Shown one piece after another: positions 23,784 to 30,711 of a stretch of DNA of 30,919 bases (position 1 is the stretch's first letter; each line of letters opens with the position of its first letter). Origin of the DNA: a virus; IMG/VR virus record IMGVR_UViG_3300005582_000061, positions 1 through 30,919 of that record; one strand, 5' to 3'. The position numbers and the translations under genes are program-made. The notes beneath the pieces are model-generated. The model was not told the DNA's origin. It was given only the letters and a program-made list of their open reading frames with translations, and searched no databases.

Positions 23784-24212
23784 ATGTCATGGACTTACCA
23801 AGGTGCTATTATCGAAGAATTACCTGAAGATTGTGTTGGATTTGTTTATCTAATCACTAATACAACTACAGGACGGAAATACATAGGCAAAAAATTAGCA
23901 AAATTTAGTAAAACGACCTACAAGACTGTAAAGTTAAAGAACGGCAACAAGAAAAAAAAGAAAATCAGAGGCAAAATAGACAGTGACTGGAGAGAGTATT
24001 ATGGCTCTAGTCCTAACTTAACAGCAGATATCAACACCTTAGGCAAAAACAACTTCACTCGCGAAATACTATACTATTGTAAAAGTAAATCCGAAACATC
24101 TTACATTGAGGCCCGCGAACAATTCGACCGCAAAGTATTAGAATCCGATGATTATTATAACGGGCATATACAAGTCCGTGTCCATGGCTCCCACATTAAA
24201 ACAAAAATTTAA
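23784..24212 (+). CDS. GIY-YIG nuclease-like protein
   Basis: A 142-residue protein with an N-terminal GIY-YIG-type motif: FVY at residues 20-22 and YIG at 33-35, within GFVYLITNTTTGRKYIGKK. A Lys-rich insert (residues 44-62) follows, then WREYYGSS, an NFTREIL strand, and an ELK-like helix with IEAREQFDR whose Glu/Arg could be catalytic. Proteins of this shape are widespread in T4-like phages as free-standing putative nucleases. It may be a homing-type or DNA-processing enzyme. Activity is not certain because the usual GIY-YIG catalytic Arg is not placed with confidence. The gene ends where the structured non-coding region begins. Confidence 0.75.
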   Translation: MSWTYQGAIIEELPEDCVGFVYLITNTTTGRKYIGKKLAKFSKTTYKTVKLKNGNKKKKKIRGKIDSDWREYYGSSPNLTADINTLGKNNFTREILYYCKSKSETSYIEAREQFDRKVLESDDYYNGHIQVRVHGSHIKTKI

Positions 24213-24695: not shown

Positions 24696-25493
24696 ATGAA
24701 GATCGATCAGTTATTAGAATATCCACAGGCAGTTGCTCCTGATAGTCCGTTAGCTAGGGCTAGAGAAAGAGAAGCCTCTAAGAAAAAATCTACTTCAGAT
24801 ATTAATCTTGGTAAAGATCCTTCTGTAGTTCCTGATACAAGTGCAACTCCTGTACAATGGGGAACTGGACAAGGTGCATATAGCTCTCAAAGTCCTTACA
24901 AAGATGTTAAAACTTCAGTAAACGGTACACCTGTTGCTACAACAGGTAATGCAGTAGCGCCTATGGGCAACACAGCACCTAAAGCTATATGGAAAGATAA
25001 AGCTGTAGACGCAGCCAGGGGTGTAGGTAATGCATTAACCACTGGAGCCAAAGCAGTTGCTAAACATGCACCGGCAGTTGGCCAGGGTATCAGCAATGTT
25101 GCCCAAGGAGTAGGTACAGCAGGAACAGGTATTGCCAAAGCAGCCGGTGACATAGCTTCTCAAACAGCAGGTGGAATTACACAGACAATTGGAGCCGCAG
25201 GTGGCGGTCTAGTTCATGGATTTAAAACAGCATCTAGAGGCAATAAGTTTATGTCTAAAGATCCCAACGTTAATCCTATTGATCGTGCTAGAGAGATTAC
25301 AGGATATCAACCAACTTATCAGCAACAGGTTGCCAACAAAGATAAAGAAGATGCTGAAAGAATGGAAAAATATAAAAGAGCATCAGGCGGTTCTAGTAGT
25401 AATGATGTTGACCTAACTGCTCAGCAGTCAGATGAAATTGATCAACTTAAGGCTAGACTAGACTCTATAGAACAGCTGGTAAGAGCTAGATAA
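24696..25493 (+). CDS. Ala/Gly-rich protein of unknown function, possible internal head protein
   Basis: A 265-residue protein with no recognised domain. The N-terminus MKIDQLLEY resembles the short capsid-targeting propeptides of T4 internal proteins (MKTYQEFIAE), and LLE-Y would fit the L/I-x-E cleavage rule of the prohead protease. The middle (residues 100-180) is Ala/Gly/Thr-rich low complexity with amphipathic repeats (GVGNALTTGAKAVAKHAPAV). The end (about 245-262) is a short coiled coil (DEIDQLKARLDSIEQLV). It has its own late promoter and an AAGGAA ribosome site 5 bases before the ATG. It converges with the gp26 unit with no base between the stop codons. The head-protein idea is inference from the N-terminus and late timing; a structural or scaffold role is equally possible. 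Confidence 0.75.
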   Translation: MKIDQLLEYPQAVAPDSPLARAREREASKKKSTSDINLGKDPSVVPDTSATPVQWGTGQGAYSSQSPYKDVKTSVNGTPVATTGNAVAPMGNTAPKAIWKDKAVDAARGVGNALTTGAKAVAKHAPAVGQGISNVAQGVGTAGTGIAKAAGDIASQTAGGITQTIGAAGGGLVHGFKTASRGNKFMSKDPNVNPIDRAREITGYQPTYQQQVANKDKEDAERMEKYKRASGGSSSNDVDLTAQQSDEIDQLKARLDSIEQLVRAR

Positions 25494-25700
25494 TCAAAAG
25501 AACGGTAGTTTAGTTTCTTTAGTTGTTTCGAGATTGCTTTCTACAATCTCTGCAATAATAGCTCTGCTGTCATAATCTAGCATATATGCCTGCTCTATAT
25601 TAAGAGCGCCTCTCATAAACCAAGCTAATCTGTAAAGTTCTTTTATTATGGCTTTTGACTCAACTTCTAGTTCTTTAACTACCTCATGTATCTCTGACAT
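25494..25700 (-). CDS. Small tail-assembly chaperone-type ORF, probably made as a -1 frameshift extension of gp26
   Basis: A 68-residue frame from ATG at 25700 (open further upstream through TTG 25712 to the gp26 slippery site). It is helical and has a WFMRGALNIEQAYML segment and a conserved-looking end NLETTKETKLPFF. From memory, small proteins of this type follow gp26 in marine T4-like phages. No ribosome site is within reach of the ATG, and the ATG falls inside the 3' arm of a 6-bp hairpin. The frame is -1 relative to gp26 and has no stop between the slippery site and its own end, so a fusion of 288 + 76 = 364 residues is predicted. It may correspond in role to T4 gp51 or the lambda T domain. 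Confidence 0.7.
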   Translation of the reverse strand: MSEIHEVVKELEVESKAIIKELYRLAWFMRGALNIEQAYMLDYDSRAIIAEIVESNLETTKETKLPFF

Positions 25701-25730
25701 AGTTAATGTCAAAAGCCTTAGCCGAAAAAA
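25695..25730 (-). promoter_or_regulatory. Candidate -1 ribosomal frameshift site at the end of gp26
   Basis: On the minus strand, T TTT TTC (25730-25724) fits X XXY YYZ in the gp26 frame (codons GAT TTT TTC), two codons before the gp26 stop. Twelve bases later a 6-bp hairpin TGACAT-TAACT-ATGTCA (25711-25695) could stimulate slippage. A -1 shift enters the open frame of the next ORF. The 12-base spacer is longer than the usual 5-9. Confidence 0.6.
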
Positions 25731-26587
25731 TCTGAATTATTGAATCCTATAGGAACAGAGTATGTTTCCGGAGCACCTGCTTCTCTTTGTTCTTCAGTAC
25801 TGGTAAATTCTAAAGGTTTTATCTCGTTAGCTGTTTTAAGATCACTTAGATGCTTTTGCACCTTGTCAAATAATTCTTTATCGGCGTTGGCCACAAATTC
25901 TGCAATGTGTTTTTTATCAGCAACTTCGGCATCTGGTGTTATGATTTTAAAAATACTCTCCGACATGAGATCTACTGTGACTTTGGTTAGATTATTAAAA
26001 CTAGAATTAAACATTTCTAATTTTTTATCGTCGGGTATAGAATTGTCGTTGACCATGTTAAGAATTCTAGTTGTTTCAAAACTCTTCATGCTAGTCTGTG
26101 TTAGGTGTTTAAAAGTTAACGGTCTAACACACACAGTAAAATCTGGAGTTATTTCCACATCTTCAGCCCAATAGTTTTGTTGTTGTTGATCTAGTAAAAC
26201 CCTGAGGTCAATTTCAAACTCTACATCTTCAGTTGTTCCCGGAACTTTATGAGTAAAGGGCATTTTTTCACCGTAGGTTGCTAGTCTAATAGCAATAAGA
26301 ATAGTGTCTAGGTCCAACGTAGGGCAATCCCATGCATTTTTAATATTAGGCATACAGCTCTGAATAACATCGACCATGGCTTGCCCGTTCATTAGCGCAT
26401 CCGGCGTTTTAAACATTAGCTCATCACGTGCTGTCATTGAGTACACTGGAAAATCTCCATTTTCTGGTATAACAATACTACGAGCGGGCCAATATTGTCC
26501 TTGGCTGGGCAAAGCAATATAAATTTTTGGCTGACGCATGTAGTTTGTCAGCGGGTTGTTTCTACTAGGGGCGGTGTTTGTCTGCAT
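25718..26587 (-). CDS. 26: Baseplate hub / tail assembly protein gp26-like
   Basis: A 289-residue protein of the T4 gp26-type family, which helps hub and tape-measure assembly. Readable family features are NPLTNYMRQPKIYIALPSQG, the PVYSMTARDELMFKTPDALM block and VIQSCMPNIKNAWDCP, all in the first 110 residues, then ILIAIRLATYGEKM. Relatives I recall carry a CxxC pair just after this point; here the corresponding stretch (HKVPGTTEDVEFE) has none. GGAGA lies 7 bases before the ATG, and a CATAAATA late octamer lies 42 bases upstream. It is encoded divergently from the tape measure gene and ends at a probable frameshift site. Confidence 0.8.
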   Translation of the reverse strand: MQTNTAPSRNNPLTNYMRQPKIYIALPSQGQYWPARSIVIPENGDFPVYSMTARDELMFKTPDALMNGQAMVDVIQSCMPNIKNAWDCPTLDLDTILIAIRLATYGEKMPFTHKVPGTTEDVEFEIDLRVLLDQQQQNYWAEDVEITPDFTVCVRPLTFKHLTQTSMKSFETTRILNMVNDNSIPDDKKLEMFNSSFNNLTKVTVDLMSESIFKIITPDAEVADKKHIAEFVANADKELFDKVQKHLSDLKTANEIKPLEFTSTEEQREAGAPETYSVPIGFNNSDFFG

Positions 26588-26663: not shown

Positions 26664-29003
26664 ATGAACGGTGCAACAGAAGCAACACTACAAGAATTAC
26701 TTGATGTAGCAAGAAGACAAGATGCTAAATTGGCTCAATTGATAGCCGCTATGCGAGCTATGTCTGCTGCCAGTGGTGGTGGAGGAGGTAGTGGGTTAAG
26801 TGGTCTTGCTTCTGCCGCGGCAGCTGCCGCGGGTCCGTTAGGCCTGGCAGCAAAAGCCGCTAGCGTAGTCGCCGGCTCGTTTAATATGCTCAGTGATCTA
26901 GTCAGTGGTGTATTTGCCGCAATGGGTGCAATATTAGGAAAAGTTGTTACAGGACTAGCTAATACTGCCGCAAACTTGTTTGAGTTTGCAATAAGTGCGG
27001 CCAAAGGCAGTGCTAAACTAAGTGAATTCTATAATGCATTTAGGGATCTACCATTTTATCTAGGAGAAATTGCTTCTGTATTTGCAAAACTTACTAGATA
27101 CTCAGAAGGCTTACTAGAATCATATCTAAAGATGACTAACTCTGGAGCTAGTTTTAGTGGTAATTTATTCCAAATGGCACAAACGGCAACTCGAGCCTAC
27201 ATGTCCATGGATCAGTTTACAAAAGTAGTAAATGATAATAGTGATTATTTTGCAACTATGGGAGGCAATGTGCAACGAGGAGTTGACAGATTTGTACAGT
27301 TGCAAAGTCAGTTTATGGGTCCGGGCAGTCGATATGCTAATGCAATTCAAGGATTAGGTATCAGTGCCGACGAAGCCGGCGGATATTTACTTTCCATGAT
27401 GAAGTCCGGTGTTATGATGAGTAACATGGAACAGCAAAATGATCAAAAGTTATTTGCGGCCACAGCGCAGTACGTTCAAGAATTAGATGCACTTAGTAAA
27501 ATAACAGGACTACAACGTAGTCAAATTGCAGAGGCAGTGGCCAAAGCAGAAGCTGATCAAATGTGGAAAAACTTTATGGAAAGCGTCACTAATCCTGGTC
27601 AGCAAGCCTACATAAAAGCAGGTCTAGCTCAAGCGTTTGCTACTGGGGGGCAAGGTGCTGTTGATCAATTTAAAGGTAGTGTAAGAGGATTAGATACGCC
27701 GCTAACCGCTCTGCAAAAGTCATTAGCTGTAGCTTCTGGAGGTATTAGTGTTCAAGGAGAAGACATAAGAAGAGGTTTTGCAATGGCCAAAACTGATCTC
27801 GAAGGAGCCATAGGAATAATGACTGAACAGCAAGTAGCCACTGCTCGAGCAGCTGGTACCTTTGCTAAACAATTTGGAGAAATAGGACAGGCAGCAGACA
27901 TAGCAAAACAATATAATATTGATGCATCGATAAATTTTAACAGAATACTAGAGTCAGTAGGTGGCGATTGGAAAAAAGCATTACAGTTAGCGGCACAACA
28001 ACAAAATCAACAAGCTGGCGGAAGCGCCGCCGCATTATTAAACGCAACAAAAAACATACAAATATTTGGTTCAACGCTAATGGGCGTAATAATTACTGTA
28101 GTAGAACCGTTGGCTGCTAGCTTGGCCAAATGGGGCACTAAACTAACAGAAGGTCTTCCTGGTATAGTAACAAGATTTAAAGATCCTATTGAAGCATTTG
28201 CTACTTTTATGGATAAGGTATTACTGCCAAAGATAGAAGTAATAGGAAATTGGTTAGGCACTTGGTTTAGTAAACTTAAAAACGTTGATAATATGTCAGA
28301 TTTCTTTTCAATACTAGGAGATGCATTTAAGGATGCATGGAAAAATATTTCAGCTGAATTAATGCCATTATGGGAGAATACTATTAAGCCTGGAATGATA
28401 AGCATATTTGAAAGTGTTATAGACTTTTTAGAACCTTATATGAAGGGTGCGTTAGATATGCTGTTTGACCAATTGTCGTTCTTTATTTGGAGGAAAACCG
28501 GAATCGGTGATGATCCTAGAAGTGCATCTAGACAGCGTATATCCGACGATAAACAATTAGAAATAGACAATTTAAAAACCAAGGCAGCTACCGAAACAGA
28601 CTCAGCAAAACAAAAAGCACTCCTAGAGAAAATAGATAAAATGGAAAAGCAGTTGCGCGACTGGAATATGGCCGCCATAGCGATTATTAAAGATAAAGAA
28701 CAAAAAGATGTTCCTTTACCGAGTCTCAGAAGGTTCTCAGAAGGTACGTTAGGTGTAACTGGTAAATTATTTGAAAATTTTGGTAAAGGTGAGATAGTTG
28801 AACTACACGGAGATGAAGCTGTGGTTACACCTAGCCAAATGTCAGAACTTACCAATGCCTCGTTAATTAATAATTTGATGGCCAGCTCGCAACGGTTAAA
28901 TACATTAACAGCGGAAGTACTTGCAGTAATGAGAGACAATAATGACATTAACAGAAAAACTCTCACAGCTACTAAGTCACTAAGCGGAAACTTATACTCA
29001 TAA
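26664..29003 (+). CDS. Tail tape measure protein (gp29-type)
   Basis: A 779-residue protein that sets tail length and fills the tube. It has a coiled N-terminus, a Gly/Ala-rich run (residues 37-60), and repeated hydrophobic helical stretches (residues 50-120 and about 470-500) that could act in membrane passage. Long helices follow. The C-terminal motif EGTLGVTGKLFENFGKGEIV then ELHGDEAVVTPSQM is typical of tape measure C-termini. T4 gp29 is 590 residues, so a somewhat longer tail is possible. It is next to the gp26 chaperone-type unit but on the opposite strand, unlike lambda, where chaperone and tape measure are co-directional. No strong ribosome site precedes the ATG. Confidence 0.88.
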   Translation: MNGATEATLQELLDVARRQDAKLAQLIAAMRAMSAASGGGGGSGLSGLASAAAAAAGPLGLAAKAASVVAGSFNMLSDLVSGVFAAMGAILGKVVTGLANTAANLFEFAISAAKGSAKLSEFYNAFRDLPFYLGEIASVFAKLTRYSEGLLESYLKMTNSGASFSGNLFQMAQTATRAYMSMDQFTKVVNDNSDYFATMGGNVQRGVDRFVQLQSQFMGPGSRYANAIQGLGISADEAGGYLLSMMKSGVMMSNMEQQNDQKLFAATAQYVQELDALSKITGLQRSQIAEAVAKAEADQMWKNFMESVTNPGQQAYIKAGLAQAFATGGQGAVDQFKGSVRGLDTPLTALQKSLAVASGGISVQGEDIRRGFAMAKTDLEGAIGIMTEQQVATARAAGTFAKQFGEIGQAADIAKQYNIDASINFNRILESVGGDWKKALQLAAQQQNQQAGGSAAALLNATKNIQIFGSTLMGVIITVVEPLAASLAKWGTKLTEGLPGIVTRFKDPIEAFATFMDKVLLPKIEVIGNWLGTWFSKLKNVDNMSDFFSILGDAFKDAWKNISAELMPLWENTIKPGMISIFESVIDFLEPYMKGALDMLFDQLSFFIWRKTGIGDDPRSASRQRISDDKQLEIDNLKTKAATETDSAKQKALLEKIDKMEKQLRDWNMAAIAIIKDKEQKDVPLPSLRRFSEGTLGVTGKLFENFGKGEIVELHGDEAVVTPSQMSELTNASLINNLMASSQRLNTLTAEVLAVMRDNNDINRKTLTATKSLSGNLYS

Positions 29004-29007
29004 AATT

Positions 29008-30711
29008 ATGTCTTGGAAAAAATATTTTACCCCCGTTTCAACCGGCCAGATGAGCCCAATATCTGGAGGAGCTGGTCTTAGACCTAATCCTAGTCGCACC
29101 AACTATTCCAGCTATCTACCAGATGTGTATTCTGGTCATCCGAATCGTTTAGAACGTTATGGACAATATGATACTATGGATATGGACAGCGAAGTTAATG
29201 CCGCACTGGATATACTAGCAGAGTTTTGTACACAACTGAACGAAGAAAATTCTACCCCATTTCAAATATTTTTTAAAGACGGTGCTACCAGTTCAGAAAT
29301 TACCATTATAAGAAAGTACCTGCAACAGTGGTGCAAGTTAAACAAGTTCCCAAGTAAGATTTTTAAAATTGTACGCAATGCGTTCAAATACGGAGATAGC
29401 TTTTTTATTAGAGACCCAGAAACACAGGCTTGGTTTTATGTAGATCCTAGTAAAGTAGATAAGATTATCGTTAACGAAAGTGAAGGTAAAGAGCCTGAGC
29501 AGTATGTTGTGCGGGACTTAAACATTAATTTTCAAAGCCTTAGTGCCACGCAAATTACTCCTACACACCAGAACAATACAGTAGGTGGTACCGGTTATGT
29601 AACCAGCGGTGGTGGTGGTGGAGTCGGTGCTTCACCCCAAGGTAACCCTGGTAGTAGATTTTCAATGAATCAAAATCAGTGGGCAATTGAAGCTAAACAT
29701 GTAATTCATTTGAGTTTAAGTGAAGGGTTAGACAACAACTTTCCTTTTGGAAATAGTCTTTTAGAATCAATTTTTAAGGTCTACAAGCAGAAAGAACTGC
29801 TTGAAGATGCTATTATTATCTACCGCGTTATGAGAGCACCGGAGCGCAGAGTGTTCTATATTGACGTGGGAAATATGCCCAGTCATTTGGCAATGGGCTT
29901 TGTTGAACGTGTTAAAAATGAAGTAAATCAGCGCAGAATTCCTAGTGTAAGCGGTGGCGGACAGAGTGTTGTTGACAGCAGTTTTAACCCATTAAGCATC
30001 ACAGAAGACTATTTTTTCCCGCAGACTAGCGAAGGCAGAGGTAGTAAAATTGATGTATTGCCAGGCGGTACTAACCTAGGAGAGATTGACGATCTACGTT
30101 ATTTTACTAACAAGCTGTTCAGGGCTCTGCGTATTCCTAGCAGTTATCTACCTACTGGTCCCGACGATGGAGGAAGTTCATTTAATGACGGTCGTGTTGG
30201 AACAGCATACATACAAGAACTACGATTTAACAAGTATTGCGAGCGGTTACAAAGTCTTTTAAATGAAAATTTTAATGCAGAATTTAAGTTATATCTAGAC
30301 AAACGTGGCATTAACATAGATTCTAGTATATTTGATCTTAAGTTTAATCCACCGCAAAACTTTGCAAGTTATCGTCAAGCAGAGATGGATACGTCTCGTG
30401 TTGGTACTTTTGGAACACTAGTTGCTGTACCTTTCTTAAGCAAACGATTTGCTATGAAACGTTTCTTAGGACTAACTGCTGAAGAAATTGCAGAAAATGA
30501 ACGTCAATGGCGCGAAGAAAATATTGACAAAGGTACTAATCTAAGTGCGCAGGCAGAATTAAGATCCGCCGGAGTTACTACGGGTGGACTATCTGCAGAT
30601 GCTGATGCGTTAGGTCAATCAGGCGAGGCTCCTGAAGGTATGGAAGATATGGATACAGGAATGGAGGCTGCGCCTCCTGCCGGAGCAGTTGAACCTGCTG
30701 GAACACCGTAA
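29008..30711 (+). CDS. 20: Portal vertex protein gp20
   Basis: The dodecameric portal through which DNA is packaged and to which the neck attaches. T4-like gp20 features are clear: RLERYGQYDTMDMDSEVNAA and LDILAEFCTQ (residues about 48-77), FKIVRNAFKYGDSFFI, AIIIYRVMRAPERRVFYIDVG and the DVLPGGTNLGEIDDLRYF block with RALRIPSSYLPTG. At 567 residues it is close to T4 gp20 (524). A Gly-rich insert (about residues 190-215) and a Pro/Gly/Glu-rich tail are extra. It starts 4 bases after the tape measure stop. It is directly followed by head-morphogenesis-type sequence. Confidence 0.95.
   Translation: MSWKKYFTPVSTGQMSPISGGAGLRPNPSRTNYSSYLPDVYSGHPNRLERYGQYDTMDMDSEVNAALDILAEFCTQLNEENSTPFQIFFKDGATSSEITIIRKYLQQWCKLNKFPSKIFKIVRNAFKYGDSFFIRDPETQAWFYVDPSKVDKIIVNESEGKEPEQYVVRDLNINFQSLSATQITPTHQNNTVGGTGYVTSGGGGGVGASPQGNPGSRFSMNQNQWAIEAKHVIHLSLSEGLDNNFPFGNSLLESIFKVYKQKELLEDAIIIYRVMRAPERRVFYIDVGNMPSHLAMGFVERVKNEVNQRRIPSVSGGGQSVVDSSFNPLSITEDYFFPQTSEGRGSKIDVLPGGTNLGEIDDLRYFTNKLFRALRIPSSYLPTGPDDGGSSFNDGRVGTAYIQELRFNKYCERLQSLLNENFNAEFKLYLDKRGINIDSSIFDLKFNPPQNFASYRQAEMDTSRVGTFGTLVAVPFLSKRFAMKRFLGLTAEEIAENERQWREENIDKGTNLSAQAELRSAGVTTGGLSADADALGQSGEAPEGMEDMDTGMEAAPPAGAVEPAGTP

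Follow-up and report, generated by a model that had tools for sequence, protein, structure and literature searches.

A gp26-type gene of an environmental virus with a predicted programmed -1 frameshift, and its counterparts in jumbo phages and other T4-like phages

Background

Phage lambda makes a short tail assembly chaperone, G, and a long one, GT, which arises by a -1 frameshift at a slippery heptamer, GGGAAAG, near the 3' end of the gene for the short one. In phage T4, gp26 and gp51 are listed as hub assembly chaperones (review, PMC3004832), and their assignment as tail chaperones has been published (Vladimirov, Gautam, Davidson 2022, Virology 566:9-15, as cited in PMC10885494). Poly-T slippery sites in the chaperone genes of T4-like phages are credited to the same work (Vladimirov 2022, as cited in PMC12846349). 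As far as these citing papers relate it, the kind of system described below is therefore already known. In the Vandenendeviridae and Andersonviridae, a tail assembly chaperone (TAC) gene adjoining the tape measure gene carries a conserved poly-T -1 frameshift, with a GTTTTT motif (PMC12846349). Cyanophage gp51 has been described as short and Aeh1 as being without gp51, and frameshifting was not invoked (Sullivan 2010, PMC3037559); the annotation of KVP40 already notes that its small ORF is similar to gp51.

Leaving aside what Vladimirov 2022 covers, we found no description in the literature of the site in RaK2, Atu_ph07, PA5oct or the window lineages. The window is the whole 30,919 nucleotide stretch analyzed here, IMG/VR record IMGVR_UViG_3300005582_000061. 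Possibly new are thus the RaK2, Atu_ph07, PA5oct and window jumbo lineages, together with a covarying RNA stem.

The gp26-type gene and its slippery site

The gp26-type gene is encoded on the minus strand (Table 1). Its short form matches PF12322 (T4_baseplate; 1.4e-11, 44.9 bits, cut-off 24.5), which places it in the T4 gp26/gp51 family, and phrog_150, baseplate hub (3e-14). The structure model (pLDDT 87) matches T4-like baseplate hub assembly proteins in BFVD (E 2.7e-21). A fold search of the PDB and sequence searches of the PDB gave no match for gp26, and we therefore claim no fold link to solved chaperones. Larger unnamed proteins of about 440-690 aa from other giant phages, among them RSF1, RP12, Special G and phiEaH2, also match the gp26 fold in BFVD, and the models suggest that they too contain a gp26-like domain.

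Table 1. Features of the window discussed in the text
Feature	Coordinates	Strand	Remarks
gp26-type gene, short form (G / TAC-N)	25718..26587	minus	289 codons
Slippery heptamer T TTT TTC	25724..25730	minus	in gp26 frame
-1 frame T-like domain	25497..25724	minus	76 codons; stop TGA 25494-25496
Predicted frameshift product, long form (GT / TAC-NC)	25494..26587	minus	364 residues; stop included; fusion predicted
Internal ATG of -1 ORF	25698..25700	minus	no Shine-Dalgarno; partly paired in nested hairpin
Stem 5' arm, GGCTTTTGAC	25708..25717	minus	starts 6 nt after heptamer; pairs with 3' arm over 10 bp
Stem 3' arm, GTCAAAAGCC	25650..25659	minus	loop of 48 nt with nested hairpins
Candidate tape measure/structural protein	26664..29003	plus	divergent neighbour of gp26; by synteny
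GIY-YIG SegE-like homing endonuclease family protein	23784-24212		PF19835, 1e-33
ORF converging on the T-like domain	24696-25493	plus	stop codons abut (25491-25496)
Portal gene	29008-30711		567 codons

The original prediction placed T TTT TTC in the gp26 frame near the stop codon, and there we found it. The 3' end of the gene on the minus strand reads TCA GAT TTT TTC GGC TAA GGCTTTTGACATTAACT ATG TCA, so that a single sense codon (GGC) separates the heptamer from TAA. This is an in-frame X XXY YYZ heptamer near the end of the short gene, as looked for in a -1 frameshift chaperone. The -1 frame, read as RLRLLTLTMSEIHEV...LPFF, is open across the heptamer and, as had been proposed, from the slip to the end of the ORF, 76 codons on. 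By translation, gp26 residues 1-288 plus these 76 give the predicted fusion of 364 aa, the length first suggested.

The locus resembles lambda G/GT in having a short form and a predicted -1 frameshifted long form, a heptamer near the end of the short gene and a small C-terminal extension. It differs in its heptamer, TTTTTTC, in the PF12322 N-terminal part, in a long-loop stem and in the divergent candidate tape measure gene.

Conservation of the heptamer

The gp26-type gene has 80 relatives on metagenomic viral contigs (identity 45-74%), and all 80 carry the heptamer and a -1 ORF. Both are also present in Phosso, Atu_ph07, PA5oct and RaK2, and ten further jumbo isolates have TTTTTTC or TTTTTTT followed by a -1 ORF. 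Across the window, the 80 relatives and these 14 isolates the heptamer is TTTTTTC, except in two that have TTTTTTT, and a heptamer is invariably present in the 71 distinct junctions of the window lineage and jumbo phages (71/71). The pattern used for the first scan, GFNNSDFF, covers the slip site and may have biased detection. The patterns used for cyanophage and KVP40-type loci do not cover the site, and still the heptamer and a -1 ORF were found in 82 of 82 loci. In additional loci the count was 29 of 30, the remaining one (L210) having a broken ORF. Aeh1 and DLP6 have TTTTTTC, and phiM12 TTTTTTT, each with a -1 T domain.

The original prediction called for a comparison of the junction across related phages. 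Heptamer and -1 relation are kept in all intact relatives; in none of them is the small ORF set off by a spacer or found in a different frame, and there is no consistent ribosome site before it. Any of these would have spoken against a frameshift. The heptamer is also rare elsewhere. Of the 94 other Phe-Phe pairs in related loci, just 4 are spelled T TTT TTC, and none of these falls within the final 15 codons of any of 278 other genes. Within the window, one other long ORF has the heptamer in frame, namely the portal gene at codon 335; this occurrence is probably due to chance.

Such an arrangement could in principle be mimicked by a short ORF that has nothing to do with gp26, or by an indel in a single contig, and a -1 continuation of at least 55 codons occurs in about 10% of other genes. 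The same anatomy is repeated in about 200 loci, many of them closely related and some from finished isolate genomes, and codon conservation follows the -1 phase. Conservation across loci rules out chance or sequencing error, to which we give practically no weight.

The -1 frame domain

The -1 domain is exactly 76 codons long in nearly all intact window-type loci, with five invariant residues, R1, W35, M37, R38 and G39. Entropy by codon phase in the -1 frame is 0.96/0.61/1.42, with substitutions falling mainly on third positions of the -1 codons. The ORF is thus both open over the site and conserved as a protein, as expected of a G/GT-type frameshift chaperone.

The -1 segment is modeled as helical (pLDDT 87). 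Scans of the window T domain against Pfam and PHROGs gave no credible family, and a profile of the jumbo T domain matched neither gp51 nor its cyanophage counterpart significantly. A BFVD fold search with the T domain returned only unnamed phage proteins of 60-73 aa (E 0.01-0.06). The small chaperone domain of the original prediction holds up as a T-like extension of a chaperone; it is not a chaperone by itself.

The small ORFs of two RaK2-type loci (L088, L091) show that phrog_18291, listed with function unknown, is the T domain of RaK2-type phages; this family could be renamed. In the window, a plus strand ORF converges on the -1 T domain with zero bases between the two stop codons.

The downstream RNA stem

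In the window, the region downstream of the heptamer folds with an MFE of -25.9 kcal/mol (z -5.87; 0/200 shuffles as stable). The stem at +6 lies within the 5-9 nt spacing looked for in a frameshift signal. The internal ATG had been described as buried in a downstream hairpin; it does lie inside a nested hairpin, but is only partly paired.

Throughout the window lineage a stem of 10-18 bp is found, usually starting 6 nt past the heptamer. Over the 71 distinct junctions the mean score of the best stem was 27.4, versus 13.7 in synonymous-codon shuffles and 12.7 in dinucleotide shuffles, and for 65 of them no more than 3 of 60 shuffles scored as high. In an ungapped alignment of 61 sequences, we counted 66 double-changed cells, versus 28 +/- 3.4 when shuffled (0/500) and 16-27 in slid controls. 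One covarying pair, for example, is A-U in 25 sequences and U-A in 21. This covariation supports the frameshift independently. In loci L021, L042, L043 and L063-L066 the 5' arm pairs with a different part of the coding sequence across a loop of 24-28 nt, indicating that the pairing is kept and not the position. Since the stem covaries within coding sequence, it is a signal that could be used for finding further cases automatically.

At about this distance from the heptamer the cyanophages form another stem, AGTATGGCTCA/TGAGTCATACT, and S-PM2 forms one of 14 bp whose sequence is unrelated. Most RaK2-type isolates show a weak stem or none; that of XacN1 is 11 bp.

Long runs of A or T can cause bacterial RNA polymerase to slip. 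The site being a homopolymer, the fusion might also be made by transcriptional and not ribosomal slippage. The run is only six long, however, and the base before it is T in only 2 of the 71 junctions, so there is no sign that longer runs were favoured. The covarying RNA stem at +6 is in keeping with ribosomal frameshifting, and we regard transcriptional slippage as very improbable.

Start codons of the small ORF

Alternatively, the small ORF could be a gene in its own right, on which ribosomes re-initiate at TTG or ATG in a manner coupled to termination at the gp26 stop. Annotators have treated cyanophage 'gp51' and Phosso 319 in this way. An ATG overlaps the gp26 stop in Phosso, Atu_ph07 and loci L001-L004, L012 and L019. 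The cyanophages keep a conserved ATG two codons past the stop, and a separate product is therefore also possible in these phages. The window has a TTG at codon 4 of the -1 frame and an ATG at codon 8.

These potential starts are, however, conserved neither in position nor in kind, and the internal ATG of the window is not conserved among its relatives. Upstream of codon 25, and hence of the conserved part of the domain, ATG, GTG and TTG are all missing from 12 of 85 loci, and ATG is missing from 38; the -1 frame of PA5oct is without any start codon. The small ORF had been said to lack a ribosome site, and we likewise found no Shine-Dalgarno sequence before the TTG or the ATG of the window. Before the first -1 frame start of the other loci there are weak 4-base matches in a few only; in L006, AGGAGG stands before codon 18, an ATG that already belongs to the domain. 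Re-initiation would also leave the invariant heptamer and the covarying stem unexplained, and T4 gp51 has the domain fused to a gp26-type domain. We consider re-initiation very unlikely to account for the small ORF.

One gene or two in T4 and its relatives

The original prediction saw gp26 and its fusion as the T4-like counterpart of G/GT, and the T4 genes bear this out. T4 gp26 and gp51 both match PF12322, and gp51 is a simple fusion of a T domain to the gp26-type domain. T4 pairs a short protein of gp26 type with a longer one ending in a T domain, as predicted for the window with its T-like domain. It differs, as does 44RR, in having two gp26-type genes and no heptamer, whereas the window has one gene and a predicted frameshift. 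Sixteen whole phage records with the heptamer, from nine jumbo and seven smaller phages, have a single gp26-type gene.

Cyanophages, HTVC008M and KVP40 have one PF12322 gene with TTTTTTC or TTTTTTT and a -1 ORF. Their T domain profile matches the C-terminus of T4 gp51 (E 8e-7), and members of the cyanophage-type T domain match phrog_634, 'baseplate hub assembly catalyst'. The -1 domains of Aeh1, phiM12 and DLP6 resemble the gp51 C-terminus as well. The gp26 and small 'gp51' of cyanophages and KVP40 share with the window the heptamer, the frame relation and a stem at similar distance; unlike the window, they have a T domain clearly related to gp51, a shorter loop and the conserved ATG after the stop. 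Aeromonas phage Aeh1 (L240), reported in 2010 as being without gp51, has its TTTTTTC and -1 T domain at the end of gp26.

In Salmonella phage Vi01 (L106), a T-like -1 ORF (GYSIFEISESMPWHLDLL) directly follows the one PF12322 gene, and there is no X XXY YYZ heptamer. Vi01 is an exception to the pattern of one gene with the heptamer or two genes, and the Ackermannviridae may use another slip site or re-initiation. On a T4-like IMG/VR contig (L202) the gp51 frame breaks after 120 codons and the tblastn match continues, which is either a sequencing error or a real interruption.

Proposed mechanism

The heptamer, its frame, the conserved -1 protein, the covarying stem, the missing starts and the pattern of one versus two genes lead us to a G/GT system in the window. 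On these sequence features, gp26 is very probably a tail assembly chaperone of this type, with its long form made by programmed -1 ribosomal frameshifting. The simplest reading of the sequences is one chaperone system with a short and a long form, obtained either by frameshifting from a single gene or, as in T4, from two genes.

From the above we infer the slip itself, its efficiency, its product and its role. In brief, most ribosomes would end at the gp26 stop, giving the short form as main product. A minority would pause at T TTT TTC against the stem 6 nt downstream, where both tRNAs would slip back one base (TTT TTC to TTT TTT), and would then translate 76 more codons to give the long form. 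By analogy with lambda G/GT, the two forms together should cover the tape measure protein and bring in subunits of the tail tube; the short part would hold the tape measure and the helical T segment of the long form would recruit the tail tube protein. In T4, the same two forms come from two genes, gp26 and gp51.

Tentatively, and with slightly less than even confidence in the whole, we speculate that the TTTTTTC frameshift is ancestral in the T4 superfamily and the two-gene state of T4 derived; that phages described as being without gp51, such as Aeh1, frameshift instead; that in the jumbo branch the T domain was replaced or is no longer recognizable after divergence; and that the distinct, covarying long-loop stem of this branch has a 3' arm that is mobile within the coding sequence.

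The frameshift is mostly unannotated in jumbo phages. The proposed system would give a function to small ORFs whose T domain is left unannotated in the records of RaK2 and PA5oct, truncated in CBB and Atu_ph07 and called 'hypothetical' in other jumbo records, and would put right the gene calls of a large group of environmental viruses. It also offers a natural comparison in which one protein ratio is set in two ways, by a frameshifted single gene or by two genes.

Neighbouring genes

The original prediction placed gp26 next to a tape measure gene, as in lambda. The neighbouring gene is a candidate by synteny, its place between the portal gene and gp26 being the same in RaK2, PA5oct and Phosso, and it has a weak match to the RaK2 neighbour (BLASTP 31% over 68 aa, E 4e-4); it is divergent from gp26, however, and not downstream as in lambda. 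It gave no family match in Pfam or PHROGs, and tblastn was without matches. The gene beside gp26 differs in Atu_ph07; the one that follows gp51 in S-PM2 has a match to a tape-measure family. On the other side in the window, the region separating gp26 from the gp46/gp47-type genes contains a gene for a member of the GIY-YIG SegE-like homing endonuclease family.
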